A stretch of 64,000 nt of DNA from Candidatus Jordarchaeales archaeon. Its GTDB lineage: Archaea; Asgardarchaeota; Jordiarchaeia; Jordiarchaeales; Freyrarchaeaceae. The position numbers and the translations under genes are program-made. Of this stretch, positions 10,521 through 63,369 are shown in pieces (positions within the stretch are counted from its first letter, which is position 1; each line of letters starts with the position of its first letter). Location: NCBI GenBank assembly GCA_038889235.1, contig JAWAHN010000001.1, positions 908,852 through 972,851 on the forward strand, read 5' to 3'. The notes beneath the pieces are model-generated. The model had not been told where the DNA came from and did not search any database. It saw only the letters and a list, made by a program, of their open reading frames with translations.

Positions 10521-11374
10521 TTACAGTATGCCCAGCATTTTATGGACTTGCAGTGATATCGAAACGTTTTCGCTTCCCAAGTAACGTGCAGCCAGCTCGG
10601 TAAATTTGCAAAGTTGTTGAAAGCTTGGAGGAAGGTAACCGTCCTTCGGAGTTACTGGTTGAATACACACTGGGCACTCTAATTTAGAAAGTTCACGTGA
10701 GTACCATTCAATGTTTTCCGTTTTGGTGTTTGAAGTAACTACTATTTTAGCGAAAACAGCCACCCCACTGTCTGAGAGAATTTTTATTGTTTTAAGCTCC
10801 AGTTCGACGAGCTCTTTCCAGTTTTTTGCAGCGTTAGCGGATTCATCTTTAATGTCGCAACAGCAGTAGTCTATTAGGCTGGCAATTCTAGCTGCAGCTT
10901 CAGGAATTGAGCCATTAGTTTCGAGATATAATTTGAAACCCGCATCCTTAATAGCTTCTGCGGTTGAACGCAGGAATTCTGGTTGGAATAACGGCTCCCC
11001 ACCTGTCAGGGAAACGGCGTGGACATCTGGTGAGCGAAGATTACAAACCCATTCGACTACGAAGCGTGAATCCACGGGGTTCTTGAAGTTGAAAACCTCA
11101 CCCGTTGGTGTAACTACTCTCAAGTAGGTAGGGTTGGGCTGTACGGCGTGGGGGGTTTTGCGTTAGTTCATAAGTCGCACCACCCACACCCTTTACTTCC
11201 AAAGGCTCCGAGACCTATATTGCATCCTGAAAAACGGACAATTCGACGGCATTAAAGCCTATATCGTCCGCCGCCCGTAATTTGAGCCCCTTACGCTTCC
11301 GCCTTCACCTTTACCCCTTCCCCGACTAGGAAGGATTGGTAGGAAGAGAATATCTCGTAGACCCACCCGCTCAT
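10521..11374 (-). CDS. queE: 7-carboxy-7-deazaguanine synthase, interrupted by short insertions
   Basis: Radical SAM enzyme converting CPH4 to CDG in the preQ0/archaeosine pathway. The C-terminal 200 residues (10521-11123) are intact: TPTGEVFNFKNPVDS, SLTGGEPLFQPEF, LYLETNGSIP. The N-terminal part is recognisable upstream but broken: MSGWVYEIFSSYQ from an ATG at 11374, then GEGGSVRGSNYGRRTI in another frame, then IVRFSGCNIG and GCGWCD. Removing 26 nt (11310-11335), 19 nt (11243-11261), 24 nt (11192-11215) and about 26 nt (around 11150-11175) gives one 252-residue frame with a proper CxxxCxxC. The first two together total 45 nt, a multiple of three. A decayed gene is the main alternative. See findings. 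Confidence 0.75.
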
Positions 11375-11503
11375 GGTCACACCGTCCTTTTCCTTCTATG
11401 CCTGTTCTTAAATTATTACTCTAGAAATGAGTTGGATGGGAAAACCATTAAAATTTCTTAACCTTTTCGTTTAGATGTGCCAAGTGAGGTAAAAAGGGGG
11501 AAG

Positions 11504-11929
11504 TTGTTCGAATTGTCACTAATGAGACTTTTGATACCCAAAGTAGAAGTGAACGTTTGCAATGTGCGTTCAGTCGAACAATCGATAAGAAAGGCTGAAA
11601 GAGGTTTAGCAGGATACTTTGAAACGACAGCTGTGGTGTTAATGCACAAGGAGGATATGAAAAAGATTGGTGTGAAGAGCGGAGACAAAGTTAAAGTTTC
11701 TTCGAATTACGGAGCGGTTATCGTCAAAGTGTATGAGACTGACGAAACAAAGCCGGGATTAGTTTTGATGCCCAACGGCCCTTGGTTTAACACAATTAGC
11801 GGAGGAGACATACAGGTGACCTGGGGGGAACACTACTACTTAGTTAGGGCGACCGTGGAGGCGACGAGCAAGGAGGAAACGAAACTAGAGGACATAGAGA
11901 GAGATCTTTTCGGAGAGGGTGGAAAATGA
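11504..11929 (+). CDS. fwdD: formylmethanofuran dehydrogenase subunit D (molybdopterin dinucleotide-binding)
   Basis: Binds the molybdopterin (or tungstopterin) guanine dinucleotide together with FwdB. The six-stranded barrel signature is visible: CNVRSVEQSIRKAERG at the start, then VVLMHKEDMKKIGVKSGDKVKVSSNYG and PGLVLMPNGPWFN. Start is uncertain: the frame opens at GTG 11477, but an SD-like AAAAGGGGG favours TTG 11504 or 11513; ATG 11522 is also possible. It overlaps fwdA by 4 nt (ATGA), so the genes are translationally coupled. Confidence 0.85.
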   Translation: MFELSLMRLLIPKVEVNVCNVRSVEQSIRKAERGLAGYFETTAVVLMHKEDMKKIGVKSGDKVKVSSNYGAVIVKVYETDETKPGLVLMPNGPWFNTISGGDIQVTWGEHYYLVRATVEATSKEETKLEDIERDLFGEGGK

Positions 11930-13482
11930 CTGAGCTAATTTTAAAGAATGGCATAGTGTTCGACCCAATTAATGGTGTTGAAGGAGAAAAAATGGATGTT
12001 ATGGTCAAAAACGGCGTCATAGTGGAGCAAGTCAACGAAAGGGAGTGTAAAGTTTTAGATGTAAAGGGCATGACTGTGGTGCCAGGGGGTATAGATTGCA
12101 ATGCGCATATAGCGTCTCAAATACTAAACATTGCGAGAATGACCGGAGTAAGAATGCCACTCCCGAGGGATCTTGGAGAAGATTATTTGAGGGCGGGTTA
12201 TACATTCGTAGTTGAGGCGGGACTACCATTCTCAAAGGTTCTTCATGCACACATTGTATTGGAGAACGTGCATTCTCTGGACAAGGCATGCATCCTGCTT
12301 CTTGACTCAAACTGGTTTATGGCAGGATTCGCCGCGGAGGGAAACTATGACGCGGCCGTGTCGGCTATAGCATGGCTACTAAGAGTAACTAGGACTTATG
12401 GGGTTGAGTTGGTCAACCCACTAAGCTTAGAGGTTTGGGCGTGGAAGAGAGAGTGGAAAGGTGCTATGGAAAAGGTAAAACACTTGGACATAAGCCCCTT
12501 GGAGTACACCAAGTTTGTTTCGTTAGCGCTTAAGAGACTTAACATTTCGAGTCCACTCTACCTGCACCCTGACGGCGCTGGACGCAAAGGGGGATGTGAA
12601 GACGCAATCGAAATATTAAACGGACTTAAAGAGTGTGGGAGAATACATTTAACACATGCCCAGTTTTACACGCTTGGAAGTGACGGGGAACTACATGCCG
12701 AGAAACTTGCCAGGTACCTAGATTCCAATAGTGACCTAGATGCCGATGTTGGATGTGCCACTGTTGGCGCTGGAACCTTTGCCGCCCATGATGCATACTT
12801 TACAAAAAACGTCTCCGAAAAGCTACACGTCTTGGAGCAAATAGAAGTTGAGGGCATCGCTACTTTAACGAAAACGAAGAGGGATCTGTGGGAAAAGTTT
12901 TGGGAAGCTGGTCTAATTCTTCTACTTGCTGTTAATAATCACTCAAAAATCCAGCTTTCAATGGATGTTCCTTTTTGCGGCTTACCACTAGACTATTCTT
13001 CAATAGCGGCATGGTTAGTAAGTAAAGCAGCAAGAAAATCCGTCAATAGCACGGAGAGGATGCTTCAAATGGACGAGCTGAAACTTCAAGAATTGTTTAC
13101 TATGACCAGAAGCGCGCCGGCATTGTCATTAGGGCTAGGCAAGAAGGGACGATTAACGGTGGGAGCTGATGCAGATATAGCAGTTTACGATTTTGATCCG
13201 GAGACCATGGATCCAAGCAGAGACTATGAGAGGTTTGCACGGGCTCTTTCAAGAGCCGCATACACCATAAAAGGAGGCGAAATCGTCGTTAAAAATGGAG
13301 AAATCGTGAATAAGGTTAAGGGGAGAACCTTCTGGGTTAACTGTAAAGTGGGAAAACCTCCAGAGGAAGTTCTCACTACTATGGAAAGGTACCTTTCATT
13401 CAATCCCAGACAGATGGAAGAAATAGGCAGGGTTTTGAGTGGAAGCTATTGCAGCGTTGAGGGTGGTGTAAGCCATGTCTAA
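11926..13482 (+). CDS. fwdA: formylmethanofuran dehydrogenase subunit A, divergent amidohydrolase
   Basis: Amidohydrolase-fold subunit that in Fwd complexes condenses formate with methanofuran at a dizinc site. The 518 residues keep the fold: GGIDCNAHIAS near residue 57, NPLSLEVWAWKREWKG with the candidate carboxylated Lys, GRIHLTHAQFYTLG, and SMDVPFCGLPLDYSS near 350. The usual HxH after the first strand reads N-A-H here, and the usual TDHPNGGPF reads MDVPFCGLP. At least one canonical zinc ligand is therefore replaced, so the substrate or metal content may differ. ATG behind GAGAGGGTGG; overlaps both neighbours. Confidence 0.85.
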   Translation: MTELILKNGIVFDPINGVEGEKMDVMVKNGVIVEQVNERECKVLDVKGMTVVPGGIDCNAHIASQILNIARMTGVRMPLPRDLGEDYLRAGYTFVVEAGLPFSKVLHAHIVLENVHSLDKACILLLDSNWFMAGFAAEGNYDAAVSAIAWLLRVTRTYGVELVNPLSLEVWAWKREWKGAMEKVKHLDISPLEYTKFVSLALKRLNISSPLYLHPDGAGRKGGCEDAIEILNGLKECGRIHLTHAQFYTLGSDGELHAEKLARYLDSNSDLDADVGCATVGAGTFAAHDAYFTKNVSEKLHVLEQIEVEGIATLTKTKRDLWEKFWEAGLILLLAVNNHSKIQLSMDVPFCGLPLDYSSIAAWLVSKAARKSVNSTERMLQMDELKLQELFTMTRSAPALSLGLGKKGRLTVGADADIAVYDFDPETMDPSRDYERFARALSRAAYTIKGGEIVVKNGEIVNKVKGRTFWVNCKVGKPPEEVLTTMERYLSFNPRQMEEIGRVLSGSYCSVEGGVSHV

Positions 13483-13945
13483 ACTTAATGCTTATCAGGT
13501 CTATAAAATGCTACCAGGGACTAACTGTCAAAAGTGCGGGGAGCCCAACTGCATGGTTTTCGCCGTGAAGCTTCTAAAAGGTGAGAAAAAGCCGGAGGAT
13601 TGCCCGCCTTTAGTGGGAGATGAAAAATATAAAGATAAATTCCAGAAGCTAAAGGAAATATTTCAGCCTAAGGATGCTGTAGCAGAAACGGGACTCATAA
13701 TACACTTCGAAAAATGCACTGGCTGTGGAAACTGCGTTGTAGGATGTCCCGCAATAGCAGCAGAGTGCCCTCTTATAGGGAGTGGTAAGGGAGAAATTAG
13801 GGATAATGTGGTTTTTAGAGTGGAGAACGGTAAGATAAAAGTGGTTGACCTTACGAAGTGTAGAAGGTATGGGCCGATAAAAACTTGCCGAGTATGTGAA
13901 ATGTACTGTTTCAGCGGTGCGATAGAGTTGAGAACTGTAGCTTGA
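13475..13945 (+). CDS. iron-sulfur protein of the Fwd complex
   Basis: 156 residues. The N-terminal CxxCxxxxC domain (NCQKCGEPNCMVFAVKLLKGE) resembles the 4Fe-4S domain of the CdhE/AcsC family. It is followed by a ferredoxin-like segment with CTGCGNCVVGCP (near 75) and CRRYGPIKTCRVCEMYC (near 130), enough cysteines for two further clusters. It lies between fwdA (8-nt overlap) and fwdB, so it most likely carries electrons to or from FwdB in place of separate FwdF/FwdG proteins. ATG start behind GAGGGTGG. FwdC is not seen in the cluster. Confidence 0.8.
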   Translation: MSKLNAYQVYKMLPGTNCQKCGEPNCMVFAVKLLKGEKKPEDCPPLVGDEKYKDKFQKLKEIFQPKDAVAETGLIIHFEKCTGCGNCVVGCPAIAAECPLIGSGKGEIRDNVVFRVENGKIKVVDLTKCRRYGPIKTCRVCEMYCFSGAIELRTVA

Positions 13946-13965
13946 AAACCAGAGGGTGAAAATCC

Positions 13966-15267
13966 TTGAGAGTTAGGACCGTGTGTACAGGATGCAGCCT
14001 CCTTTGCGACGACATTGTAGTTGACGTAGAAGGGGAGAAAGTAGTTTCTACTTTCAACCTTTGTGGGCATGGTGAAGAAAAGGTTCTGAGGGCTCGCAGC
14101 GAGGATCGGTTGCTAAAGCCATTCATAAGGGACGCAGATAAATTTAGAGAAGTTTCTCTTGATGAAGCAGCTGAAAAGGCGGCCGAAATAATGCTAGAAG
14201 CCGAAAGACCAGTTCTTTGGGGTTGGAGCTCCTCGTCGATAGAAGCACAGATAGCGGGTATAGAGCTGGCGCACGAAATTAGAGGAGTTATCGACAATAC
14301 AGGATCCCTTTGCCATGGAGCTACATGGTTTGTTGCCTCAGAAAGCGGGTTAGCAACAGCCACCCTAGGGGAAGTGATGAACAGAGCAGATGTGGTTGTT
14401 TATTGGGGAAGTGATCCAGGTCATTCGCATCCACGCCACTTGAGCCGCTACAGCCTTCTTCCTAGAGGAATTTACACGCAAAGTGGCTACGAACAGAGAC
14501 GCGTCTACGTCTTTGATATAAGGAGAACGAGAGTGGGAAAAGTTGCGAACGTCTTAGTGGAAGTAGAACCAAATAAAGACTACGAGCTGATAGTAGCAAT
14601 GCGCCTTATTTTGAGGGGAAAAAAGATTCAGCGGAGCAGCGTTGCAGGTGTTCCAGTTAAAACTCTTGAGAGGATCCTTCAGGAGTGGAAGGAGAGGAGT
14701 TTTGGCGCAGTTTTCTATGGTATGGGGTTATTGGCAAGCCGGGGTAAGTATCGGAATTTAGAGGCACTTTTCAGATTAGTATGGGACTTAAATGATTACA
14801 CACGCTTTGTAGCTTTGCCCATGGCTGGACATTTTAACGCCACTGGGTTCAACCACACAGCGGCGTGGATTACAGGACACCCTTCGGGAGTGGACTTCAG
14901 TAAAGGTGAACCTTACCATAACCCTGGGGAAACAACTTTTGCCGAAATGCTTCAAAGGGGCGAGATTGACGCTGCTCTAATAGTGGGTTCTAATCCAATG
15001 GCAAGCTTCCCAGTTAAACTCGCAAAGAAACTCGCCCGCATACCGCTAATAGTCGTCGACTGTTTCAAAACACTCACAGTGAAATATGCCACAGTGGCGA
15101 TCCCCGCAGCTATAACAGGAGTGGAAACTGGGGGTGTAGCTTACAGGTTGGACTCTGTGCCAATAATCTTAAAGGAATTCCTTAAACCTCCTGAAGGTGT
15201 ACGTGGTGACGCAGAGATCATTCGGCTTATAACTGAAAAAGTTAGGGAAAAGAAGAGGTTAAAGTGA
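13966..15267 (+). CDS. fwdB: formylmethanofuran dehydrogenase subunit B, catalytic
   Basis: Molybdo/tungstopterin oxidoreductase reducing CO2 to formate (or the reverse). An N-terminal 4Fe-4S site reads CTGCSLLCDD plus Cys33 (NLCGHG). The metal-ligand Cys followed by His is at GSLCHGAT near residue 112, a Cys rather than a selenocysteine form. MAGHFNATGFNHTAAW, HPSGVDFSKG and HNPGET match the FwdB core. The 433-residue length is typical. TTG start behind GAGGGTGA. With D, A and the Fe-S protein it forms one operon. Confidence 0.92.
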   Translation: MRVRTVCTGCSLLCDDIVVDVEGEKVVSTFNLCGHGEEKVLRARSEDRLLKPFIRDADKFREVSLDEAAEKAAEIMLEAERPVLWGWSSSSIEAQIAGIELAHEIRGVIDNTGSLCHGATWFVASESGLATATLGEVMNRADVVVYWGSDPGHSHPRHLSRYSLLPRGIYTQSGYEQRRVYVFDIRRTRVGKVANVLVEVEPNKDYELIVAMRLILRGKKIQRSSVAGVPVKTLERILQEWKERSFGAVFYGMGLLASRGKYRNLEALFRLVWDLNDYTRFVALPMAGHFNATGFNHTAAWITGHPSGVDFSKGEPYHNPGETTFAEMLQRGEIDAALIVGSNPMASFPVKLAKKLARIPLIVVDCFKTLTVKYATVAIPAAITGVETGGVAYRLDSVPIILKEFLKPPEGVRGDAEIIRLITEKVREKKRLK

Positions 15268-15807
15268 GACCACCAGGAATTTTACCGTTAAGAAAGGATT
15301 GAAGGAAACGTGGCGCCTTAAAACACGTATGCCGTGATAATCTGGAGAGAAGAGAGCGAGAACCCCCACGTTCCGTCCGTAGAGAGATATGAGAAGCTGG
15401 GATAATTGCTTTAACTCTTCGGTTTGCCGTGCGAGAAGGCCGCGTGCACGTGACATATATGATGTGAACATTAAGTTGCCGAGGAAAATTAGCAAAATAA
15501 ACGCAACAGCTACTGAAGACAGCAAGGGAAAAATTATGGATGGAACGAGGGGGTAAATGATGGCAAGAATAAATGATGCGTAAATTATAAACAAAAGTAA
15601 GCGGAGAGGTGGGCTGCTTCTGTAAAAGTTCTGTATATTCTTTAACTCTTTCATAATTAGTTTGAGCTTACGGTGATCCACGTGTTGCCTTAAAAAGTTG
15701 TAGGATCGCTGAGTCAGCAGGATACTGGAAAAAACGGGAGGCCTAAGCGACGAAAAAGCATCCAATTCTTCTATTATTCGCCTTATGAAGGCAGCTTCTT
15801 CACTCAT
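15259..15807 (-). CDS. hypothetical membrane protein
   Basis: About 182 residues with two adjacent hydrophobic segments near residues 60-108 (LRLLLFIIYASFILAIIYPL and SIIFPLLSSVAVAFILLIFL), flanked by charged cytoplasmic regions. No enzyme motif is recognised. The start at the internal ATG 15807 (MSEEAAF) is preferred; the frame is open to 15831. It ends 9 nt inside the fwdB stop region (convergent). Function unknown. Confidence 0.5.
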   Translation of the reverse strand: MSEEAAFIRRIIEELDAFSSLRPPVFSSILLTQRSYNFLRQHVDHRKLKLIMKELKNIQNFYRSSPPLRLLLFIIYASFILAIIYPLVPSIIFPLLSSVAVAFILLIFLGNLMFTSYMSRARGLLARQTEELKQLSQLLISLYGRNVGVLALFSPDYHGIRVLRRHVSFNPFLTVKFLVVSL

Positions 15808-15839
15808 TTTTCTCACTCGTATAAACATCACCGATGCGA

Positions 15840-16361
15840 TTATTTTTCTGAAAAGGCCTCTAGATATTCTAAGGCTAGTCTCTTATAAGTTTCCACACCA
15901 GCCTTTATCGCTTCAACAGTTTCAGGAGGCAAAGTTTTCTTAACTTGCGCCGGTGCGCCAACTATGAGACTGTTTGGAGGAAATTCTTTTCCTTCAGTAA
16001 TTACAGATCCTGCCCCGACTATGGAACATGGACCTATCTTAGCTTTGTTGAGTATTATACTCCCCATGCCTATTATTGTGTTGCTTCCTATCATGCAACC
16101 ATGTAGGACTGAGTTGTGGCCGACTACAACGTTGTCGCCTATATAACAGGGGCTGCCTGGATCCGCATGAATAGTCACGTTGTCTTGTATGTTTGTCCCT
16201 TCCCCGATCTCTATTAGTTCAAGGTCTCCACGTATAACAGCGCCAAACCATATGCTAGCATTTCTCGCTATCCTAACGTTTCCTATTATGGTAGCATTGG
16301 GAGCGACAAAAACCGTCGGATCAAGCTGGGGTTTTTTCCCTCTGAAGGAATAAATGGGCAT
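15840..16361 (-). CDS. gamma-carbonic anhydrase-like hexapeptide-repeat protein
   Basis: Left-handed beta-helix protein of the CamH/YrdA/PaaY group: repeated [I/V]G-x4 units (VFVAPNATIIGNVRIARNAS), zinc-type His in NVTIHADPG and VVGHNSVLHGC. About 173 residues. The start MPIYSF at 16361 is chosen because a GGAGGGTG SD sits just upstream. Catalytic carbonic anhydrase activity is plausible and would fit a CO2-using Fwd enzyme nearby, but many family members act on other substrates. Confidence 0.8.
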   Translation of the reverse strand: MPIYSFRGKKPQLDPTVFVAPNATIIGNVRIARNASIWFGAVIRGDLELIEIGEGTNIQDNVTIHADPGSPCYIGDNVVVGHNSVLHGCMIGSNTIIGMGSIILNKAKIGPCSIVGAGSVITEGKEFPPNSLIVGAPAQVKKTLPPETVEAIKAGVETYKRLALEYLEAFSEK

Positions 16362-16411
16362 CTTTACACCCTCCATGGTGCAGGACGCGTTTAACACATT
16401 TAAGGGGGACA

Positions 16412-17254
16412 CTAATTGACGTTTTTCGTCTTCTTGAGGTAGTCGCTTATGGAGGTCAAAGTGGCACCCTTATCTTCTAGGAAGGTCAGTATGCTGCGAA
16501 GCAGGTATATGTTTTCCTGTATTTGACTCGCGGAAAGCCTGCAATTTGACGAAATCCTGTATGCAAGATGCCACGTGTGTGTTGCTATCACAAGTAATCC
16601 ACCGTCATCGTTTTCCAGATAAGCACCCAGTATTCCTTTGAACTCATCTATGCTTCTTCTCCCTTCATGCAAGGGCCAAGTGTAAAGTGACGCTTTCCTT
16701 TCCCCCAGAGGGTAAATTGGTAGTGGGATTTCGATGACCCTACGCCCAATAAGGTACGGGTGGGGGGGCTTAGAAGTCTCTAGTTGAATGGATGAATCGT
16801 ATTTGTAATCTAGTCGTTCCAATAATTCGGCTATATCGAGAGGCACGGACAAGTACGGTGCTCTGAAGCCTACCGGCCTCACACCAATTATTTTCGTTAT
16901 AGTTTCAGTCGCTTTCCTTAGAATAGCTAATTTTTTACGCGGTGGTATGAGAACGCCAGTATATTTTCCGGAAAGGTCTTCATGATCCATTCCGTGGCAA
17001 CCAATTTCGTTCTTCACTATCATGTCGATGAGAGACTCTTCCTGAGACTTTATGTGCTTGAGCGCCCTAGCTTCGATAAAAAAAGTCGCTTTAATGCCTG
17101 TTTCTTCCAAAAGGTTGGCTAGTGCCTTCAACCCTTTGATTGTACAGTCGAAACTAGGTTTGCATGTTGGAGCGTAACTGGCTGCCTTTACCTTCTTGTC
17201 TACGGGGACTGGATAGTCGCGGTCTAGGTCCACCGTGAAGGCAACGAAGGTCAT
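16412..17254 (-). CDS. polysaccharide deacetylase-family protein
   Basis: 280-residue NodB-type (CE4) fold. Motifs: FTVDLDRDYP near the start (catalytic Asp and metal site), GCHGMDHEDLSG (HxxxH-like metal ligands), and GFRAPYLS (Arg of motif 3). A late His appears in VIATHTWHLAY. Substrates could be a surface glycan or another acylated or amide compound. The ATG at 17254 follows a GGGGGAC SD; the frame extends to 17326 without support. It ends about 50 nt upstream of the hexapeptide gene on the same strand. Confidence 0.75.
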   Translation of the reverse strand: MTFVAFTVDLDRDYPVPVDKKVKAASYAPTCKPSFDCTIKGLKALANLLEETGIKATFFIEARALKHIKSQEESLIDMIVKNEIGCHGMDHEDLSGKYTGVLIPPRKKLAILRKATETITKIIGVRPVGFRAPYLSVPLDIAELLERLDYKYDSSIQLETSKPPHPYLIGRRVIEIPLPIYPLGERKASLYTWPLHEGRRSIDEFKGILGAYLENDDGGLLVIATHTWHLAYRISSNCRLSASQIQENIYLLRSILTFLEDKGATLTSISDYLKKTKNVN

Positions 17255-17404
17255 ATTTGTCCCCCTGATGAGTTCTCCAGAAAACGAATATTTTTGAACA
17301 TTTAAATCGATTATACTGAACACCAACTTAAACGGGATCTGGGCGACGAGCGTACTCTTATAAACAAAACAGTCATAGTGACACTTAGAGAGGAGGTTTA
17401 AGTC

Positions 17405-18262: not shown

Positions 18263-18275
18263 GGAGGTTTTGATA

Positions 18276-19808: not shown

Positions 19809-19834
19809 GGCATTGTTCTCAAAAGAGGGGGAGG

Positions 19835-30990: not shown

Positions 30991-30992
30991 CT

Positions 30993-32877: not shown

Positions 32878-32901
32878 TTTTTGGAACACGTGTTCCAAAA
32901 A
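32878..32901. repeat. 24-bp perfect palindrome
   Basis: Core GGAACACGTGTTCC flanked by TTTTT and AAAAA. It lies 4 bp past the stop of the gene at 32906. Related imperfect copies (GGAACACATGTTCT) occur twice at 33587-33619. It could be a protein-binding site or a transcript end; the shared core with the other copies favours a binding site. Confidence 0.55.
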
Positions 32902-33586: not shown

Positions 33587-33619
33587 GGAACACATGTTCT
33601 AGTTTGGAACACATGTTCT
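33587..33619. repeat. tandem 19-bp repeat containing a palindrome
   Basis: The unit TTTGGAACACATGTTCTA recurs with a 19-bp period; palindromic cores GGAACACATGTTCT lie at 33587-33600 and 33606-33619. The second copy runs into the stop codon of the gene at 33618. The core differs by only two bases from the palindrome at 32883-32896. Confidence 0.6.
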
Positions 33620-33974: not shown

Positions 33975-34461
33975 ATTAACATGTTAACAAAGTGTTAACG
34001 TGTTTACTTTCTCTGTTTGTGCTGAGGATTTTCTACATAAATGAAGCAAAAAATCGTGTGTTTAAGTTAACCCCTTTGTTTCAACTGCAGCAAAAAATCT
34101 TGGGACTTCCTTTCTTTATTTGACGTTAACAATTTTTGTTAATTTTCTTTTGCCAAAAACAGTGGAAAAAACTATTTTTTTACTTTTTTCAGGTAATTTT
34201 TTTCTTTATTGGTGTTAACGTTTGTTTTTTCGCCGTTTTTTTCTTTTTCGCTATTTTTCTTTCTTTTTGTCTTTTCTTGCTGTTCTTGGTTAACAAGTTA
34301 GTAGTGTTAACTTGTTTCACATTTTTGACTTTTAGCGTTAACTGAGGTTGGTGTGCTTTGTACCTGCTGCTTCCCGTAATAGATAAAGATATATATGTCG
34401 TATGCGGAGATTTAACTTGCCTCGTTTCCGGTGGAAGGCGCGCCAGTTGGGGGCCCTATTA
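33975..34461. other. putative replication origin core: AT-rich segment with ORB and GTTAAC cluster
   Basis: No gene. Contains ORB-like element 3 (34071-34090), eight GTTAAC palindromes (first bases 33983, 33994, 34066, 34125, 34214, 34289, 34306, 34337), and an extremely T-rich strand from about 34130 to 34290 suited to unwinding. A TATA-like AAAGATATATATG at about 34386-34397 can serve the winged-helix gene to the right. Together with ORB 1 and 2 and the nearby orc1/cdc6, it is the best origin candidate. Confidence 0.65.
34071..34090 (-). promoter_or_regulatory. origin recognition box (ORB)-like element 3
   Basis: Minus-strand CTGCAGTTGAAACAAAGGGG, nearly identical to element 1. It immediately follows a GTTAAC palindrome (34066-34071) and borders the T-rich segment. 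Confidence 0.65.
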
Positions 34462-42110: not shown

Positions 42111-42248
42111 TGGTGCGGGGGGTGGGATTTGAACCCACGAACGCGTGCGCCCATACTGGTCTACGCGATGGGCTCCTGAGGCCCACCCCTATGGTCATCC
42201 ACGCCTTTGACTTTGCCTGCAGGACGCATCTGGCTTGGGTACCCCCGC
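42111..42248 (-). tRNA. tRNA-Leu(CAG) with three short insertions and encoded CCA
   Basis: Acceptor GCGGGGG pairs with CCCCCGC, the T arm is GTGGG-TTCAAAT-CCCAC, and the anticodon stem TGGGC/GCCCA encloses CTCAGGA, giving anticodon CAG (42176-42178). CCA is encoded (42111-42113). Without the CCA the gene is 135 nt. Removing 18 nt in the D loop (42212-42229), 16 nt at the end of the D stem (42188-42203) and 14 nt in the variable arm (42146-42159) gives an 87-nt tRNA with D stem CCC/GGG and variable stem CGCG/CGCG. No insertion is at the usual position 37/38. Confidence 0.88.
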
Positions 42249-54346: not shown

Positions 54347-54508
54347 AAATTACGAAAAATTGGCTCTCTTCTTTTCACACCCCATTCTTTTCCGGGGCTT
54401 AATTAAAGATTTTTCCATATTTTTATAAGAAATATCGCAAAATATATCAAAATATTATTCATTCTCTTTAAAACGAAAAATTTTTATTGAGAATCCCTCC
54501 TATTCATG
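54347..54508. promoter_or_regulatory. AT-rich promoter region upstream of RNA candidate
   Basis: Strongly AT-rich, no gene. AAAAATTTTTATT at about 54476-54488 is TATA-like and lies about 26 nt before the predicted start of the structured RNA (about 54509). A T-rich run near 54411-54428 may end the pheST-isochorismatase transcript. Confidence 0.5.
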
Positions 54509-54640: not shown

Positions 54641-54707
54641 TACATGGTTCTTTTCTCTTCTCTTTTTATTGGAGAAGAACAAAACTGAGGACTGGAGATG
54701 AGTTTTT

Positions 54708-55860
54708 ATGTGGCGTGTTGTTCGCCCAGACTCGATTAACGTGTGGAACGATGAACAAGTCTTAAATAGGCTCAAACGTTACTACGAGGTTTTTAACGGC
54801 AGAAAGTTCGCTAAAATGATTATTGCAAGTAGGGTGGAAGTTGACGACGACCTTGAAGCTCCCACAAAGAAGCTTTGGGATCAACATAGAAAGGCTAGTG
54901 GAGTTTTTCGCCGCCTCCTTAAAGAAATAGACCAGGGCGACACGAAATTAAATAACTTAGACACTCCCAAGACGTCTTACCTAGATTTAAAGGTGGAGCT
55001 TGCAAAGCGAATATTAACAAACTGCCATTTTTGTGAAAGAAGATGTGGTGTAAATAGGCTGGCGGGGGAGCGGGGCTTTTGCCAGCTTGATGCTAAAGCA
55101 TATGTATCGTCAGCCTTCCTTCACCTCGGGGAAGAAGCTCCCTTGGTTCCTTCGGGCACAAACGCCAGAGGCCCCCTCTGGTGGTGCAATCTTTTTTAAC
55201 ATGTGCACTTTCAGGTGCGTCTTCTGCCAAAATCACGACATTTCAACTGTAATAGATGGCGTCGAAGTCGATGGAGAAAAACTGGCTAGTTTAGCACGCC
55301 ATTTAAAGAGGGAGGGGGCCCGAAACATAAACTATGTCGGCGGAGACCCGACGCCATCGTCATACGTAATTCTTGATGCTATAAGAATTCTTGCACGTAC
55401 AGGGACAAACATTGTTCAGCTATGGAACTCCAATTTCTACTGTAGCAAGGAGTTGATGACGCTGCTTTTCGACGTCATAGACTTCTGGCTTCCAGACTTC
55501 AAGTATGGCAACGATAATTGTGCAGAAACACTTTCAAAAGTTAGGAAGTACTTTGACGTAGTGTCTAGAAATCATAAGCTCGCATATGATGAAACCGTCG
55601 TAGAGGGTAGCTCGGGAATGATAATACGTCACCTAGTAATGCCTGGGCACATAGATTGTTGCACAAAGCCTATTCTAGAATGGATCGCTAAAAATACTCC
55701 ATTAGCCCTTGTTAATGTAATGGCACAGTACCATCCCGACTATCTTGTTCCAAGGAGTCCTGAATACAAGGACATAAACCGTAGGGTAACCGCCAGGGAA
55801 ATGAAGGAAGCCTATGATTACGCTGACGCACTAGGCCTATTGTGGAGGCCAGTTAGCTAA
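54708..55860 (+). CDS. COG1313-type radical SAM protein, interrupted by a 28-nt insertion
   Basis: PflA-like radical SAM protein. The first frame (54708 to stop at 55199) carries CHFCERRCGVNRLAGERGFC and HLGEEAPLVPSG; the second carries AIFFNMCTFRCVFCQNHDIS (CxxxCxxC cluster), INYVGGDPTPSSY and VMPGHIDCC to a stop at 55860. Removing 28 nt (55158-55185) joins them as LVPSGAIFFNMCTFRC. The inserted piece forms a hairpin with arms CCAGAGG/CCTCTGG. A one-base indel in the C5 run (55172-55176) would also restore the frame but leaves extra residues. ATG behind GAGATG. Substrate unknown. Confidence 0.75.
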
Positions 55861-55888
55861 TGGCCATGCCTTTTAACCTTTCCCTTGC

Positions 55889-56920
55889 TCACCACCACTT
55901 CGTCTCCCTGCACTCACCTATTACCGGTATTCTTTCACCGCAACGCGGGCATTTTCCGTCTTTCAAGTTGCACTTAAGCACCGTGAAACCGTATCTTCTG
56001 ATCACTCTTTCACCACAACTTGGACACAGTGTGTCTTCTCCCTCTCCCGGGATATTTCCCATGTAGACGTAGTGCAGTCCCTCTTTCATTGCTATCTCCC
56101 GTGCCCTGGCTACTGTCGAGGGCGGAGTTGGAGGAAGATCTGTTAACTTATAGTGGGGGAAGAATCTGGAAAAATGGACGGGTACATCGTCTCCAACATT
56201 TTCCTTAACCCACCTTGCAAACTCTCTAAACTCCTCCTCGCTGTCATTCAGTGTAGGTATTATCAGGTATGTTAGCTCCACGTGTATTTTCTCCTCCTTC
56301 ATGACTAGGATGGCGTCTAGTACTGGCTTAACCCCTGGCGCTTTACAAATTTTCTTGTAAAATTCATCTCTCATCGATTTGACATCAACGTTAGCGGCAT
56401 CTATGTACGGCGCAATATTCCTCAAGGGTTCCTCCATTATGTAGCCATTAGTCACAAGCACGTTCATTATTCCTCTCTCATGTGCAAGCTTCGCCACGTC
56501 AAAAACAAATTCGTACCAAATAAATGGTTCATTGTACGTGTACGCTATAGATCTGCTTCCGCTCCTCTCAGTACGCTTAACTATCTCTTCCGGCGAAAAA
56601 TCCCTAGTTAGACCGCTTTCAATAGAAACCTGCGAAATCTGCCAGTTCTGACAGTTTTGACAATGCAGGTTACAACCTACCGTTGAGATAGAGAATATGT
56701 TGCTTCCAGGGTAAAAATGGAAGAGTGGCTTCTTTTCTATTGGGTCTACGGCCATTGAAGAAACCGCACCATAAACCAGCGTGAACAACTTTCCTCCCCT
56801 ATTTTCGCGGACACCGCAGCCCCCTCGTTTGCCCTCTCTAATAACACAATTGTGGGGGCATAAACGACAAACTACTGTTCCATCGTCTTTAGGCTCGTAG
56901 AATAATGCTTCCTTTATCAT
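55889..56920 (-). CDS. amrS: AmmeMemoRadiSam system radical SAM enzyme
   Basis: 343 residues (COG1180). N-terminal CRLCPHNCVIREGKRGGCGVR, radical SAM cluster TVGCNLHCQNCQNWQIS near 73-85, AYTYNEPFIWYEFVFD, and a C-terminal zinc-ribbon-like tail (CPSCGERV ... CPRCGERI). This is the AmrS form, which usually occurs with AmrA and Memo; those are not in view. ATG 56920 behind AAGGTGACC. Adjacent to, but convergent with, the COG1313 gene. Confidence 0.88.
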   Translation of the reverse strand: MIKEALFYEPKDDGTVVCRLCPHNCVIREGKRGGCGVRENRGGKLFTLVYGAVSSMAVDPIEKKPLFHFYPGSNIFSISTVGCNLHCQNCQNWQISQVSIESGLTRDFSPEEIVKRTERSGSRSIAYTYNEPFIWYEFVFDVAKLAHERGIMNVLVTNGYIMEEPLRNIAPYIDAANVDVKSMRDEFYKKICKAPGVKPVLDAILVMKEEKIHVELTYLIIPTLNDSEEEFREFARWVKENVGDDVPVHFSRFFPHYKLTDLPPTPPSTVARAREIAMKEGLHYVYMGNIPGEGEDTLCPSCGERVIRRYGFTVLKCNLKDGKCPRCGERIPVIGECRETKWW

Positions 56921-57070
56921 TGAGGTCACCTTCTCCGCTTCACTTATGTTTGGAACAACAATGCACTCTAAGAAAATAATTATCCTTTGAAAGGAGAAAT
57001 CTCTTTTGGAATAAAACATTTTTATTAAGAGGAATTTTTAGTCTCCCAAAAGGAGAGGAAGGGGATTCAT

Positions 57071-57961
57071 TTGGGAACAACGAACGATACCGTGCTTGTT
57101 GCAGGGTCGGCTTCCCAACTGCTAGCAGTCAGAATAGCGCGCGCTCTTAAAGTGGAATTAGTACCTATGGCGTCTAAAACTTTTCCAGACGGAGAACTTT
57201 ACTTACGATTTCTCTCACCTCTCAATGGACGAAGAGTAATAATCGTCCAGTCAACTCCACCCCCCCAGAACTCAAATCTTCTCGAGCTCTTCTTCCTCAT
57301 CAACGCTGCAGTAGAGAAAGGTGCAGACGAAATCATTGCCGTGGTCCCATATTTGGCATACGCCCGGCAGGATAAAGAGTTCCTCCCCGGAGAAGCAGTA
57401 AGCGGGCGCTACATATGCCGTATGTTAAAGAACTGCGGTGCAGATATAGTTATAACAGTCAACATACACAGCAGAAGCATATTCGAAGGAATTGATTTGC
57501 CTTTTATAGACCTAGACGCATTCCCCTTAATAGCCGAGTACTTTGAGAAGACTCCTCTAAAGGACCCCTTAGTCCTAGCCCCTGACAAAGGAGCAGTAGA
57601 GGAAGGGTCGCTCATTGCAGAGAAGTTGGGCTGTTCTTTCGCCTTCTTGGAAAAGGAGAGGGACAGGTATACTGGAGAAATAGTCACTGCAGAAAAGCAG
57701 ATGGGTCTTAAAGGACGCGACGTGCTTATAGTTGATGATATCATAAGTACTGGTGGAACTATGGCTAACGCCGTCTCCATAGCTGTTAAACAGGGAGCGC
57801 GAAACGTTTACGTGGCCTGTGTTCATCCGCTGCTCGTTGGTGAAGCGCGTCTCAAGATTCTAAACGCTGGGGCGAGGGAAATAATCGGGACAGATAGTGT
57901 CCCAAGTGATGTAAGCATAATTTCTTTAGCACCATTAATCGTTGGTGCGTTAAAACGTTGA
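57071..57961 (+). CDS. prs: ribose-phosphate pyrophosphokinase
   Basis: Makes PRPP for nucleotides and cofactors. 296 residues with FPDGELYLRF, VVPYLAYARQDKEFLPGEAVS (given as PYLAYARQDKEFLPGEAVS) and the PRPP loop VLIVDDIISTGGTMANAV near residue 220. TTG start behind GAGAGGAAGGGG. The stop overlaps the TrmG10 start, so the two are coupled. Confidence 0.95.
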   Translation: MGTTNDTVLVAGSASQLLAVRIARALKVELVPMASKTFPDGELYLRFLSPLNGRRVIIVQSTPPPQNSNLLELFFLINAAVEKGADEIIAVVPYLAYARQDKEFLPGEAVSGRYICRMLKNCGADIVITVNIHSRSIFEGIDLPFIDLDAFPLIAEYFEKTPLKDPLVLAPDKGAVEEGSLIAEKLGCSFAFLEKERDRYTGEIVTAEKQMGLKGRDVLIVDDIISTGGTMANAVSIAVKQGARNVYVACVHPLLVGEARLKILNAGAREIIGTDSVPSDVSIISLAPLIVGALKR

Positions 57962-58986
57962 AGACCCGTTTCTTCTTCCTTCTATCAGGAGAAAACGAGA
58001 AATTGTCTCAGGGAGAGCTCAAGGCTATCTTAGAGGCTAGCGGCCTCCCGTTCAGCTTTTCAGCGTCGGGTCGAGTTGCCATAGTTGAAACAGACTATCG
58101 CGTTGCCCAGCTAATTCTAGAACGCTCTGCTATGTGCCATTACGGCTGCTTGCTTGTTGCAGAATCGCCCCCCTCGCTTAACCTATTATTCGACGCTCTT
58201 TCATCGTCCCCAATCAATTCCATAGTTTCACCCACTGACTCCTTCGCGGTTAGGGCGAAGCCCGTCAATCCACTCCCTTACGAAGTTGACACAATGCTTC
58301 TAGAAAGAACACTAGGTGAATTTGTGAAGAAGATGACAGATGCGCGGGTCAATCTGAAAAACCCGAATAAACTCTTAGTTTGTCTTTTAACTGAAAAAGA
58401 ATTTCTTTTTGGGTTATGCATTGGGCGCTCAGCTAGAAAAAGTTTTAGACTCCGTCCCACCCGTTATAGGCCATTCATGACTTCTTCGTCTATGTCTCCC
58501 TTCACTGCGAGAACTATGGTTAACTTGGCAAGGGCGTTAAGTGGCCACATACTTCTAGATCCTTTTTGTGGTAGTGGAAGTATACTTATAGAGGCAGCGT
58601 TAATTGGATGTCGGGTTGTAGGAGGAGACATAGACCCTAGAATGGTTCGCGGTGCAAAGGCAAACTTCAATTACTACCAAATAGATGGCGATTTGCTAAT
58701 AGGTGACGCTCGTTACCTCCCGTTCTCAAGCGTTGACAGAGTTGTAACAGATCCGCCTTATGGTCGTGCCGCGTCAACGAAAGGCGTGCCACTCGATGTT
58801 CTCCTCCAGCACTTCTTGTCGTCTATGAGCAGTGTTCTTAAAAAGGGAGGCTGGTTATGCATGGCATGCCCCTCGAACGTAAACGTAGAACGCTATATGG
58901 ATGTCCACGATTTTAAAATAGTGGAAACATATCAAGTGCGTGTTCACGGAGGTCTCACAAGAAAAATAGTTGTTTCGAAGAGGTGA
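57958..58986 (+). CDS. trmG10: tRNA (guanine(10)-N2)-dimethyltransferase
   Basis: 342 residues. N-terminal THUMP-like domain (about 50-155), then a Rossmann methyltransferase: LLDPFCGSGSILIEAALIG (motif I) near residue 200, GGDIDPRMVRGAK, and VVTDPPYGRAAST (motif IV, DPPY) near 262. TTG start within the prs stop. It is followed immediately by RNase Z, so a tRNA-maturation group. Confidence 0.92.
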   Translation: MKTRFFFLLSGENEKLSQGELKAILEASGLPFSFSASGRVAIVETDYRVAQLILERSAMCHYGCLLVAESPPSLNLLFDALSSSPINSIVSPTDSFAVRAKPVNPLPYEVDTMLLERTLGEFVKKMTDARVNLKNPNKLLVCLLTEKEFLFGLCIGRSARKSFRLRPTRYRPFMTSSSMSPFTARTMVNLARALSGHILLDPFCGSGSILIEAALIGCRVVGGDIDPRMVRGAKANFNYYQIDGDLLIGDARYLPFSSVDRVVTDPPYGRAASTKGVPLDVLLQHFLSSMSSVLKKGGWLCMACPSNVNVERYMDVHDFKIVETYQVRVHGGLTRKIVVSKR

Positions 58987-59970
58987 ATGTCCGCTTTGAC
59001 ACTGAAGATCGTTTTCCTAGGAACATCCGGCAGCATACCAACCTCTCAAAGAAACCTTCCTGCCGTGGCCGTCTGCCTCGATAGGGAAATCCTTCTTTTC
59101 GACTGCGCTGAAGGCACCCAGAGGCAAATGTTCATGGCTGGGTTAAGCATAAGCCGTATTTCGAAAATATTCATATCGCACTTGCACGGAGACCATGTAA
59201 TGGGCCTGCCAGGAATAATTCAAACGCTCTCTCTCATGGAAAGAGAGACACCATTAGACATATACGGACCCCTAGGCCTTTCCAATCTTATAAATTCTCT
59301 CGCAGAAAATCTCGCATTTTCCCCGTCTTTTGATATCAACGTTCACCAGGTTTCTCCAGGAAATCTTTTCGAGTCCTCCAAATATGTTGTTAAATGCGCG
59401 CAGGTTGATCACGGATCAATAGACGCTTACGCATATGCATTTGAAGAGAAACCAAAACCTGGAAAGTTCCACCCCGAAAAAGCAGTAATGTTAGGTGTAC
59501 CCATGGGTCCTCTCTGGAAGCAACTTCAAATGGGAAAACCTGTAACGCTTGAAAACGGCCGCGTGGTGGTTCCAGAAGAAGTTGTAGAGCCTTCGAAACC
59601 AGGAAGGAAGATAGTTTACTCTGGAGATACCGCCCCCTGTCAGGCACTCCTCGAACTAAGCAGCTTTGCTGATGTTCTGATCCACGAAAGCACCTTTGAT
59701 CACACGCTCGAGAGCAAAGCCAATGAAACAAAACACTCGACAAGCGTGCAGGCAGCAATGATAGCTCGTGAGGCAAAAGTTAACCTTCTAGTTCTAACGC
59801 ACATCAGTTCAAGGTATACGGACACAAGCCTACTACTCCAACAAGCAAAAGAAATTTTTCCGAACACTATAGTTGCCCAAGATTTCATGGAAGTGCTTAT
59901 TGACTCAAAAGGTACTGTCAAAGTCTCTCTAATCTCCGCTCAAACGAAAACCCTACAAAACACTATATAA
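58987..59970 (+). CDS. rnz: ribonuclease Z
   Basis: Cleaves tRNA 3' trailers. 327 residues. Zinc motif SHLHGDHVMGLPG near residue 60, FLGTSGSIPTSQRNLPA at the start, the exosite-like insert, VYSGDTAPC with the bridging Asp near 218, and LTHISSRY near 275. ATG start behind AGGTGA, directly after trmG10. The catalytic set is complete. Confidence 0.95.
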   Translation: MSALTLKIVFLGTSGSIPTSQRNLPAVAVCLDREILLFDCAEGTQRQMFMAGLSISRISKIFISHLHGDHVMGLPGIIQTLSLMERETPLDIYGPLGLSNLINSLAENLAFSPSFDINVHQVSPGNLFESSKYVVKCAQVDHGSIDAYAYAFEEKPKPGKFHPEKAVMLGVPMGPLWKQLQMGKPVTLENGRVVVPEEVVEPSKPGRKIVYSGDTAPCQALLELSSFADVLIHESTFDHTLESKANETKHSTSVQAAMIAREAKVNLLVLTHISSRYTDTSLLLQQAKEIFPNTIVAQDFMEVLIDSKGTVKVSLISAQTKTLQNTI

Positions 59971-60001
59971 CGAGCAGCTCGCTTCATGTTACTGAGATGG
60001 C

Positions 60002-60430
60002 TTACGCATCTGAGGGTGGTGCTGTCTCTTGTGGTTTTCCATCTATTGTGGGTGGGCAAAGCCACTCAACTAACTCGTTTATTTTGTTACTTATTATCGT
60101 CACTTTTATTGCTCCCATCGGCGACTCCCTTTCTGGGGCACAAAAGTGAAGTTTACCCACGTACGCCGCTTGTTTGTTTAGGTAAAATGTCAGCTCGTTT
60201 TCTCTAATATTCCTCTTTAGAACCCCCCTTGCCGCCTCCACTATGTATTGTTCACGCAATTTTTCATATATCTGTCGCAAGCTATCTATACCTTCAGCCT
60301 CACCCACCAGTCTTTCTTCATCCCCTTCTTTATAGGTCTGGTAATCAACGTTTAGAATGTTTTTTAATGCCCTAATCACTTTATCTGGGTCTTCTGTCGG
60401 TTTTAAAGGCGTTTCCACCCTTATTTTCAT
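60002..60430 (-). CDS. UPF0201 family protein
   Basis: 142 residues, archaeal UPF0201 (COG1325): VETPLKPTEDPDKVIRALKNI at the start (given as PLKPTEDPDKVIRALKNI), FYLNKQAAYVGKLHFC and ESPMGAIKVTI. Ribosomal-L5-like fold with no known role. ATG behind AGGAGG. It overlaps the UPF0200 gene by 50 nt in another frame, the usual pairing of these families. Confidence 0.85.
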   Translation of the reverse strand: MKIRVETPLKPTEDPDKVIRALKNILNVDYQTYKEGDEERLVGEAEGIDSLRQIYEKLREQYIVEAARGVLKRNIRENELTFYLNKQAAYVGKLHFCAPERESPMGAIKVTIISNKINELVEWLCPPTIDGKPQETAPPSDA

Positions 60431-60971
60431 CCATTATCCTCCTAAGAAGTTCTCTAATCCTCATCTTGAACTCTTCAATGTCCCCCTCATTAACTATCAT
60501 GTAGTCCGCTAATGCTAAAGCAGCTCCCAAGCCAACTCGCAGCTCTCTCTCGTCTCTCTCAACGAAGTGCTCTATACTTTTTGGGTCGTCTTCCCTTCCC
60601 CTCGAAGTCAACCTCTTTAAACGGGTTTTTGGTGAAGCATGAACACCTATTAACCTAAAGTCCGGGTAGTTTTCTCTAAATGTCTTAATTTCGGCTAAAC
60701 TTCTTACTCCTTCTACAACTACTATTTCGTTTTTCTCCGCGTTTATTTTCGGTATACATCTCCTTGCAATAGCGTCCTCCCCCTCTTCTTCTCTGATTTT
60801 AATCATGAGCATGCCTATGTTTTCTGGGGAGGGAGGGATCCCCCTCTTCCTTGCAACCTCACGTATAACATCTCCCATAGAGACTACCGGTATTCCCTCG
60901 CTTCTCGCTACCTCTGCTGCAACACTCTTTCCACTTCCAGGCATGCCTACTATGCCAATGACCTTCTTCAA
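60381..60971 (-). CDS. UPF0200 family P-loop kinase-like protein
   Basis: 196 residues. P-loop GIVGMPGSGKSVAAEVA at the N-terminus, then MGDVIREVARKRG and VVVEGVRSLAEI, as in dephospho-CoA or adenylate kinase-like proteins. TTG 60971 is chosen because GGTG lies 6 bases upstream; longer frames lack support. The true phosphoacceptor is unknown; dephospho-CoA kinase has been considered for archaeal relatives. Confidence 0.85.
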   Translation of the reverse strand: MKKVIGIVGMPGSGKSVAAEVARSEGIPVVSMGDVIREVARKRGIPPSPENIGMLMIKIREEEGEDAIARRCIPKINAEKNEIVVVEGVRSLAEIKTFRENYPDFRLIGVHASPKTRLKRLTSRGREDDPKSIEHFVERDERELRVGLGAALALADYMIVNEGDIEEFKMRIRELLRRIMDENKGGNAFKTDRRPR

Positions 60972-61002
60972 ATCTCCCACCCGGAGGAGTGCCCGAGCCT
61001 GA

Positions 61003-62136
61003 CTATATAAAAAGATATTCAGCACCTCCAGTTTTGCTCCGGGTTTTGAAAATTTCGCTCAAAACTTCTTCTATCAATTGCTGGTCTATTTTGTCTGCAT
61101 TTTTTATGATTGCCCTATGGAACGCAGTTTTAAGCAATTTCTCCTTTAAATCTCTTCCAGAGAACCCTTCAGTTATAGAGGCTATTTTGTCGAAGTCACA
61201 CTCAACTTTGAGGGGAATCTTCTTGGCGTACATCTCGAGAATCTGCCTTCTTTCCTCTAGCGATGGCAGCGTGAACTCGATTTCCTCCTCAAACCTGTTT
61301 CTAAGGGCCAAATCTAATAGCATTAAGTTGTTTGTGGCCCCGATGCACACAACACCCGGTGTAAGCTCCAGCTTATCCATCTCTGCCAGGAGGGCGTTAA
61401 CCACCTCAGTGACGTCGCCCCTTACACTTTGAAACCTTCTATCGAGCCCTATAGCATCTATCTCGTCTAAATATACGACACTTGGGGCTGCCTCTCTCGC
61501 TCTCCTGAAAAGCCTACTTATTTTACTCGCCGCATCACCTACGTGGGTGCCTATGAGTTCAGGCGATTTAACGAAGAAAAACTCTGCTCCAGCCTCATTA
61601 GCCAGTGCTTGTGCCGTCATCGTTTTTCCCGTTCCTGGAGGACCATAAAAGAGAATGATTCTAGGCGCCCAGTCACCAAAAGCTTCTGGGCTTTCTAAGT
61701 ACTTTTTTATGATCATGCACTTTTCTTTAGCCCTTTGTTGTCCGACAACATCCGCGAGTGTAATCTTGGGAAACCGCGTAGAGGGGCGTCTTTCCGCTTT
61801 CTTAATTACTTTAAATACAGTTTTATTGGTAATTTGCCCCTCACTAGGTGTCATGTCGACTATCTTGAAAGCGAAGTCTGGAAAAAGGGACCTATCAAAA
61901 AGCAGATCTCCCTTTTTGACGTATAATCCATCCCATTGTTCTCTGGCATACGCTTGGAATACCTCAGGATTATCCACAGTCAATATAGTCTCTTTGTCCT
62001 CTCCTATTTCCCTTAAAGGGTATCCTAAAGGTTCAAGTTCTACTAGTACTGCCTGTTTTATTCTCTCTTTGCTTTTCTTATGCTTTTTTAGACTTTTGTA
62101 GTATACTTTTTCCTTTTCTAATTCCTCATTAACCAA
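61003..62136 (-). CDS. single-domain AAA+ ATPase (COG1223-like)
   Basis: About 377 residues. A helical/beta N-terminal region (1-110) precedes one AAA module: LFYGPPGTGKTMTAQALANEA (given as FYGPPGTGKTMTAQALA; Walker A near 165), VVYLDEIDAIGLDRR (Walker B), IGATNN (sensor 1) and the arginine-finger region LRNRFEEEI. Resembles PAN/VCP-related hexamers but is shorter. TTG 62136 behind GGGTGA; follows dnaG closely. Confidence 0.85.
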   Translation of the reverse strand: MVNEELEKEKVYYKSLKKHKKSKERIKQAVLVELEPLGYPLREIGEDKETILTVDNPEVFQAYAREQWDGLYVKKGDLLFDRSLFPDFAFKIVDMTPSEGQITNKTVFKVIKKAERRPSTRFPKITLADVVGQQRAKEKCMIIKKYLESPEAFGDWAPRIILFYGPPGTGKTMTAQALANEAGAEFFFVKSPELIGTHVGDAASKISRLFRRAREAAPSVVYLDEIDAIGLDRRFQSVRGDVTEVVNALLAEMDKLELTPGVVCIGATNNLMLLDLALRNRFEEEIEFTLPSLEERRQILEMYAKKIPLKVECDFDKIASITEGFSGRDLKEKLLKTAFHRAIIKNADKIDQQLIEEVLSEIFKTRSKTGGAEYLFI

Positions 62137-62141
62137 GTACT

Positions 62142-63369
62142 TCACCCTTCTTGCTCCATCATTATTTCATTGAATTCCATCACTTTGAGCTCTGCCGGCC
62201 TTTTGACCACATTTTCCTGGCGAACCCCAACAATCCACCTAGCACCCTTTTCTTGCGAAATGTCAATAAGTCTCTGCGTAACTATCCCGTCGAGAACTAT
62301 GCCCCCGATTTTCTCATTAATGTTTCGAAGGTAATCTGCTAGCTCCGATACTTCGACTTCTGCTACCATGTTAAGGTTCTCTCCAAGTATCCTTGCCTTA
62401 CCAGTGTTGAAAATTGCTTTCGAGTGCTCAATCACTTCCTGCGGAACCCTGCTCACTTTCTTAACAACTTGTTGTACTTTCTTTTCTTCACGTTTCTTCA
62501 TTTGCTCTTGCTCGACTATTTGCTCGACGGGTACCTTGTTGTTCAATGCTTTCACTATCTCTTTGAAAGTAAGGTCTTCGACCTCACGGCCAGGGGGTGC
62601 TCTAGCAATATAATCTATGTCCGCGACCTGCAGTAACTCTTTCAAAATTAAGTCGCCGCCTCTGTCTCCATCCAGAAAAGCTGTTACTACTTTTTTCTTA
62701 CTCAGCTCGATTATCGTTTTCGGGATGCTGGTTCCCTCTACCGCTATGACGTTCTTGAAGCCGTGTTTTAACATATTAAGCACGTCAGCTCTACCTTCAA
62801 CTATGATGATTTCGTCTGACGAGTCTATTTCTGGGCCTGCGGGCAGCCCTTCTTTTCCATATTTGCATATCTCCGCCGTTCTTACCGCTTCAAGGACCTT
62901 GTTGACTATCTGTTCTGTCTCTGGGGAAACCTCCTCCGGCCACCTTCTTAGAATTTCAACGGCCCGCTCAATAATCCTCTTTCGTTTACTTTCTCTAACA
63001 TCCTCTATAGATTCAAATGTCACTTTAGCGCTGCATGGCCCTATTCTGTCAATAGTTTCGAGTGCCGCTGCAAGGATGGCTGTCTCAACTTTATCAAGAC
63101 TTGAAGGAACAATTATCTCCCCTATAGCTTTACCTCCATGATACTCAAGTTCTGCCTTTATACGCCCTATTCTCCCCGTGCGTTGAAGCTCTCTTAGATC
63201 CATGTCAGATCCGAGAAGCCCCTCCAATTTGCCTACGTGAGCCGCGACCGGCTCCACGTAATTGGCCGAATATTGCTCCTATGACATCGGGCTTCTCGAC
63301 AACACCATTTACCTCTATTTTTGCTTTTATAATGTATTTTATCGTGCCGATATCATTTCGATCAGCCAT
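62142..63369 (-). CDS. dnaG: DnaG-like primase, interrupted by a 34-nt insertion
   Basis: Archaeal DnaG (exosome-associated Toprim protein). The N-terminal exon starts at ATG 63369 with a GGAGGTGAT SD and reads [20 protein letters not shown] then IGAIFGQ; the rest in another frame reads [20 protein letters not shown]. Toprim motifs [10 protein letters not shown] and FLDGDRGGD are intact. The frames join exactly if 34 nt between AATT repeats (63226-63229 and 63260-63263) are removed, restoring the GAIFGQ-xEGLLG block. The insertion folds as a hairpin. Without removal the gene cannot be read from a conserved start. 397 residues after removal. Confidence 0.85.

Follow-up and report, generated by a model that had tools for sequence, protein, structure and literature searches.

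Interrupted genes in the window

The window, that is the whole 64-kb stretch analysed here, comes from the 2.14 Mb genome (8 contigs) of a Candidatus Jordarchaeales archaeon (G000:C1:908852-972851) and contains four genes interrupted by very short segments: queE, a tRNA-Leu(CAG) gene, a COG1313-type radical-SAM gene and archaeal dnaG. Nine such insertions had been proposed in the first-pass annotation. All four loci are indeed interrupted, and eight of the nine segments belong to the bulge-helix-bulge (BHB) type of intron, with three each in queE and the tRNA gene and one each in the radical-SAM gene and dnaG, while the ninth, a 24-nt segment of queE, is coding (Table 1). They were compared across 8 genomes from one order of the Asgard class Jordarchaeia (other name Freyarchaeia), 4 of the same genus (family f1) and 4 of a second family (f2). 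The window dnaG shares 82% protein identity with that of Candidatus Jordarchaeum sp. JNZ_1113.

The BHB layout used for scanning runs from the 5' exon through a 4-nt central strand, two bulge bases, the cut, the third bulge base and an inner helix into a loop, and continues with the inner helix, a 4-nt central strand, two bulge bases and the second cut. Cleavage between bulge bases 2 and 3 is the known BHB geometry (PMC2738675). Excision at the cut points predicted in this way restores the frame and conserved residues, and at dnaG, the radical-SAM gene and queE intron A the best match of the scan is the exact frame-restoring segment.

Table 1. Interrupted genes and introns. A caret marks the cut within a bulge or the junction within a protein; features on the minus strand are read from the higher to the lower position.
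Feature	Position	Strand	Description
queE (7-carboxy-7-deazaguanine synthase)	10521..11374, ATG 11374	-	4 exons; spliced protein 263 aa
queE intron A	11310..11335	-	26 nt; central TACC/GGTA; bulges AA^T, AA^G; joins YQ^GEG; BHB top match
queE intron B	11242..11260	-	19 nt; central CGAT/GTCG; bulges AT^A, AA^T; restores TIFVRFSGC
queE 24-nt segment	11189..11212	-	coding, extended cluster loop, not intron
queE intron D	11157..11173	-	17 nt; central TGCG/CGCA; bulges AC^T, AA^A; restores WCD^TPHA
tRNA-Leu(CAG) gene	42111..42248	-	CCA encoded; 3 introns
tRNA intron 1, D-loop	42212..42229	-	18 nt; bulges AG^A, AA^G
tRNA intron 2, D stem / anticodon stem interval	42191..42206	-	16 nt; central GGTC/GACC; bulges AA^A, AT^A
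tRNA intron 3, variable arm	42145..42160	-	16 nt; central GCGT/GCGC; bulges AG^A, AC^G
COG1313-type radical-SAM gene	54708..55860	+	2 exons; 374 aa spliced; Radical_SAM Pfam residues 152-317
Radical-SAM intron	55162..55189	+	28 nt; central GCAC/GTGC; 8-bp inner helix; bulges AA^A, AA^T; restores SG^TIFF
Archaeal dnaG	62142..63369	-	2 exons; 397 aa spliced; NF003108 520.7 bits, cut-off 300
dnaG intron	63228..63261	-	34 nt; central GGCC/GGCA (3 pairs + GxA); bulges AA^T, AA^T; joins GAIFGQ^LEGLLG
selD (L204) intron	C1:553441		31 nt
leuC/homoaconitase family (L238) intron	C2:318687		29 nt
HdrD/TfrB-like Fe-S protein (L246) intron	C1:565612		30 nt
FAD-linked oxidase (L199) intron	C3:304889		27 nt; 22 nt in G002

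In queE, the proposed segments of 26 and 19 nt are confirmed by their BHB motif and their conservation in congeners, and a copy that had been called uncertain proves to be a genuine intron, intron D. The spliced protein reads MSGWVYEIFSSYQGEGGSVRGSNYGRRTIFVRFSGCNIGLGAFGSKGCGWCDTPHA... and matches TIGR04508 and other QueE models at scores below their cut-offs; it also matches PDB 4njg. QueE structures in the PDB read CDT at the intron D junction, as the BHB cut predicts. All three introns are common to G000 and its congeners G001, G002 and G003, with lengths for A/B/D of 26/19/17, 22/19/17, 22/18/16 and 22/19/15 nt, respectively, and the joined frame is the same in 4/4 species. Since intron D measures 17, 16 and 15 nt in the three congeners, only excision preserves the frame. 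At the intron D site, the genes of the sister family f2 are disrupted too. The idea that the congeners lack queE introns, drawn from longer open frames, was wrong.

The 24-nt segment was rejected as an intron: it is in-frame, stop-free and without a BHB motif, and it measures exactly 24 nt in four species. It encodes a conserved GLGAFGxxG (GLGTFGxxG in G002) and aligns with the long loop between the cluster cysteines of the solved Burkholderia multivorans QueE (4njg). The protein does not carry the CxxxCxxC expected after excision, since this segment is coding. Its cluster motif C-x11-C-x2-C is unusual and genus-wide, and the sister family has the extended loop as well. An NCBI model matching QueE carries the name queE_Cx14CxxC.

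For the radical-SAM gene the proposed length stands and the boundary has to be moved. The frame alone permits SGAIFF, as had been read, or SGTIFF; the BHB geometry forces SGTIFF, and 4/4 outside homologues examined have SGTIFF or SGTIFL. An orthologue was found in 6 other class members, and the intron occurs at the same site in 7 species of both families with 28-32 nt. In Jordarchaeum JNZ_1113 it has 28 nt as here, with one G.U to G-C change. A search for this gene in viral contigs gave no match. The 34-nt insertion in dnaG is as proposed, its excision giving GAIFGQ-xEGLLG, and has a 31-nt counterpart in JNZ_1113. This intron is confined to f1: in the 4 f2 genomes dnaG runs without interruption across the predicted junction (GAIFGQ^TEGLLG), and all of 46 other archaeal dnaG records are likewise uninterrupted.

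ARAGORN detects no tRNA in the 64-kb window, nor in the unspliced pre-tRNA, and the sole Rfam match of the unspliced tRNA-Leu locus is tmRNA-like with 21.6 bits. Once 18, 16 and 16 nt are removed, ARAGORN reports a normal tRNA-Leu(CAG), so that the proposed interruption holds and the proposed length of 14 nt does not. Exon bases from either side of intron 1 contribute to the central helix of intron 2, which forms only once intron 1 is gone. Because this helix spans the joint left by intron 1, introns 1 and 2 are probably excised sequentially, judging from the sequence. No Rfam intron match in the window indicates a group I or II core, a catalytic RNA of at least 200 nt; the introns span only 15-40 nt over all species.

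Translational bypassing, in which ribosomes hop over segments that are missing from the protein, could also account for segments that are short and break the frame, some of them with hairpins and short repeats at their ends; the yeast mitochondrial byp elements and T4 gene 60 are examples. Bypassed segments stay in the RNA and are skipped by the ribosome. Here the same type of element as in the protein genes interrupts a tRNA, which is never translated. Bypassing also fails to explain why exon end and intron end pair in exact BHB geometry with bulges that begin with A, and why the BHB-defined cut sites yield the correct residue. We consider it very unlikely.

Further introns and their conservation in the class

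The genome-wide scan suggested in the first-pass annotation had a divided outcome. Lax scans showed no enrichment, while a conservation-based survey of 1.66 Mb (78%) of the genome against congener G002 (1.1 Mb) and shorter stretches of others gave four further introns, in selD, a leuC/homoaconitase family gene and the genes for an HdrD-like Fe-S protein and an FAD-linked oxidase. The introns are therefore few and detectable only via conservation. In the first round of the survey (1.26 Mb), six conserved frame-joining candidates reach a BHB score of at least 21 in both species in the true register, and none does when the 3' partner is slid by 1 or 2 nt; slides of +/-3 nt were rejected as a control because they leave the frame intact. 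The survey can reveal only those introns that the compared species share, which makes its count a minimum: seven protein genes hold at least nine introns and, with the three in the tRNA, these make 12 sites. cbf5 is not among the host genes.

Several classes of candidates were discarded. A list of non-triplet indels compiled without a BHB requirement consists nearly entirely of gene boundaries, the in-frame-stop class of the conserved scan was matched in number by its controls, and candidates gD, gE, gF and gH as well as the weaker matches x1-x5 were judged to be gene boundaries or chance.

Of the spliced products of the additional genes, SelD, with the junction NATSDVY^AKGA, aligns without gaps on a eukaryotic SelD homologue, LeuC is gapless across its junction on archaeal isopropylmalate isomerase (537 bits), and the FAD-binding domain runs across the spliced oxidase junction. 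Introns at the same site are found in 7 species for selD, 7 for the radical-SAM gene, 8 for leuC and 4 for queE, and those of selD, the radical-SAM gene and leuC occupy an identical site in both families. The HdrD-like intron occurs only in f1; the f2 gene is uninterrupted at the predicted junction (CGF^CRNECP). Lengths vary by non-multiples of three (29/30/33/40 nt in leuC, 30/31/34 nt in selD, 15/16/17 nt for queE intron D), and excision keeps one frame throughout. The f2 selD introns have 30 nt and contain an in-frame TAA. In a 119-genome sample of the phylum, a short selD open frame (~256 aa or less) is seen only in Jordarchaeia, the others being open over 300-330 aa; G001 was matched in this comparison only from residue 61.

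A frameshift in a metagenome assembly often reflects an error or a pseudogene, which speaks for gene decay or for sequencing and assembly error. The insertions, however, recur at the same sites in independent assemblies from 2-8 species and two families, which contradicts assembly error. Both exons are under purifying selection, with substitutions biased to third positions, and although the lengths change by steps other than triplets, excision leaves intact frames in several species. Intact paralogues, which the first-pass annotation had named as a sign of decay, are missing: none of queE, dnaG, selD and the radical-SAM gene has an intact second copy in the examined part of the genome. Decay or error is thus hardly credible.

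The pairing statistic covers 38 orthologous introns and counts as cells the three inner central pairs and the first three inner pairs. In the BHB register, 219 of 227 cells are paired (96.5%), compared with 25-45% when the strands are slid by 1-4 nt and 37% (sd 3.0; maximum 47.6 in 1000 trials) when strands from different introns are paired; orthologous introns are non-independent and cut sites were picked by BHB fit, which somewhat favours the register. Compensatory changes are free of this bias in cut-site choice. They are seen at 15 pair positions, five in selD (7/7 paired), four in leuC, three in the HdrD-like gene, two in queE intron A and one in queE intron D. Every mRNA intron keeps the 4-bp central helix, the sole exception being the outermost pair in dnaG. 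The bulges begin with A in 76/76 cases in the 38 introns and in 24/24 cases at the 12 independent sites (tRNA and FAD-oxidase introns included), and this feature was not a criterion in finding the introns. EndA-type structures grip the first bulge base, A, by pi-cation contacts (PMC12397907).

Some of the conserved pairs are G.U pairs, in 7/7 species for selD, 3/3 for the HdrD-like gene and 4/4 for queE intron B. Their conservation in all species indicates that the pairing takes place in RNA. This bears on excision at the DNA level, by which a working copy of the genome would lose the segments and with which their precise boundaries agree. Since every assembly carries the inserted form and the G.U pairs fit RNA and not DNA, we regard such excision as extremely improbable; EndA and RtcB, moreover, would suffice.

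Splicing machinery and the proposed pathway

Both components that the first-pass annotation had suggested looking for, tRNA splicing endonuclease and RtcB, are encoded in the genome. EndA is present as two paralogous genes. L001 has the catalytic Tyr/His/Lys motif (YEHGPGIDHAP and a conserved Lys) and is close to the Aeropyrum catalytic subunit, with 3p1z as best match. L002, without the His at the catalytic motif, is read as the beta subunit, and the pair would then adopt the (alpha beta)2 arrangement, both assembly and specificity being inferred. EndA of this type can cut relaxed BHB motifs (PMC6379350), and hetero-oligomeric EndA is associated with cbf5 splicing (PMC2738675).

We conclude that the segments are almost certainly archaeal BHB introns, which would be spliced out of precursor RNA; covarying BHB structure and frame restoration favour the mini-intron proposal of the first-pass annotation over bypassing, DNA-level excision and decay. 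In the folded precursor RNA, the end of the 5' exon would pair with that of the intron as a 4-bp helix, with a 3-nt bulge on each side. Cutting is most likely performed by EndA, with the heterotetramer expected to cleave each bulge between bases 2 and 3, and joining of the exons by RtcB. One machinery would then serve the multi-intron tRNAs of the class and at least seven protein mRNAs, one of them carrying three introns.

Several observations weigh against this conclusion. All genomes compared are metagenome assemblies. A lax ab initio scan for BHB motifs with a frame switch over 1.26 Mb gave no excess over displaced controls, owing to false positives from gene boundaries and antisense frames. 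Intron D of queE is nearly without an inner helix and thus a relaxed motif. In dnaG, the outermost central pair is a GxA mismatch, and joining yields a Leu in place of the Thr of most archaea; the Njordarchaeota records also have Leu.

Beyond that, tRNA splicing may have become a general mRNA-splicing system in this Asgard class, with BHB mini-introns in tens of protein genes; we put this forward only tentatively. Equally speculative is the extension that introns have been gained and lost over time at catalytic-motif codons, mostly of Fe-S, selenium and flavin enzymes. If such a system exists, the output of these proteins hinges on EndA/RtcB activity, which could then serve as a point of regulation. 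The introns sit at catalytic motif codons, as in cbf5.

The window contains two further sequence features. The near-perfect palindrome GGAACAYRTGTTC occurs three times within 740 bp of mostly non-coding sequence (32883-32895, 33587-33599 and 33606-33618), with 7 matches on both strands, one mismatch allowed, where 0.17 are expected; it is possibly an operator or an integration/replication site. Eight GTTAAC palindromes (26 in the whole window) lie within ~360 bp of AT-rich, apparently non-coding sequence (33983-34337).

Relation to known splicing systems

The interrupted genes have practical consequences, as gene callers break them: queE, dnaG and selD resemble pseudogenes, and ARAGORN misses the tRNA. 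Orthologues with and without an intron can be used to study intron gain and loss. Removal of the introns, as deduced here, would illustrate mRNA splicing by proteins and without a spliceosome, at several introns in one mRNA, in relatives of the eukaryotes.

Non-spliceosomal mRNA splicing is also carried out by the IRE1/RtcB system on XBP1 and HAC1, and XBP1 shares the short intron and ligation by RtcB. That system differs in its nuclease, in its RNA motif and in being stress-regulated, whereas here there is no evidence for regulation.

The closest precedent in an mRNA is cbf5, for which Watanabe in 2002 reportedly described an intron in the crenarchaeal pre-mRNA. As of 2009, splicing by the tRNA endonuclease had been confirmed for no archaeal mRNA other than cbf5 (PMC2738675). 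The introns reported here resemble the cbf5 intron in the BHB motif within an mRNA, the predicted cut between bulge bases 2 and 3, the position at the codon of a catalytic residue and the hetero-oligomeric EndA (Yokobori 2009, PMC2738675).

In tRNA genes, such introns are common in this class: 92-95% of the tRNA genes in Freyarchaeia and Atabeyarchaeia carry introns, often non-canonical and multiple (PMC11291895). These introns, like those of Thermoproteales, share with ours the BHB motif, shortness, non-canonical positions, occurrence of several per gene and the presence of EndA/RtcB. The published introns of the class lie in tRNA genes, whereas here protein genes are affected too; introns in protein genes go unreported in the main text of PMC11291895. 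As far as the open-access PubMed Central literature goes, preprints excluded, the spread of BHB introns over many unrelated mRNAs of Asgard archaea, with several in one gene, is new; their kind is known. Whereas the cbf5 intron is a single intron in a single gene of only Desulfurococcales and Sulfolobales, the introns described here occur in at least seven unrelated genes, with up to three per gene, in an Asgard class.

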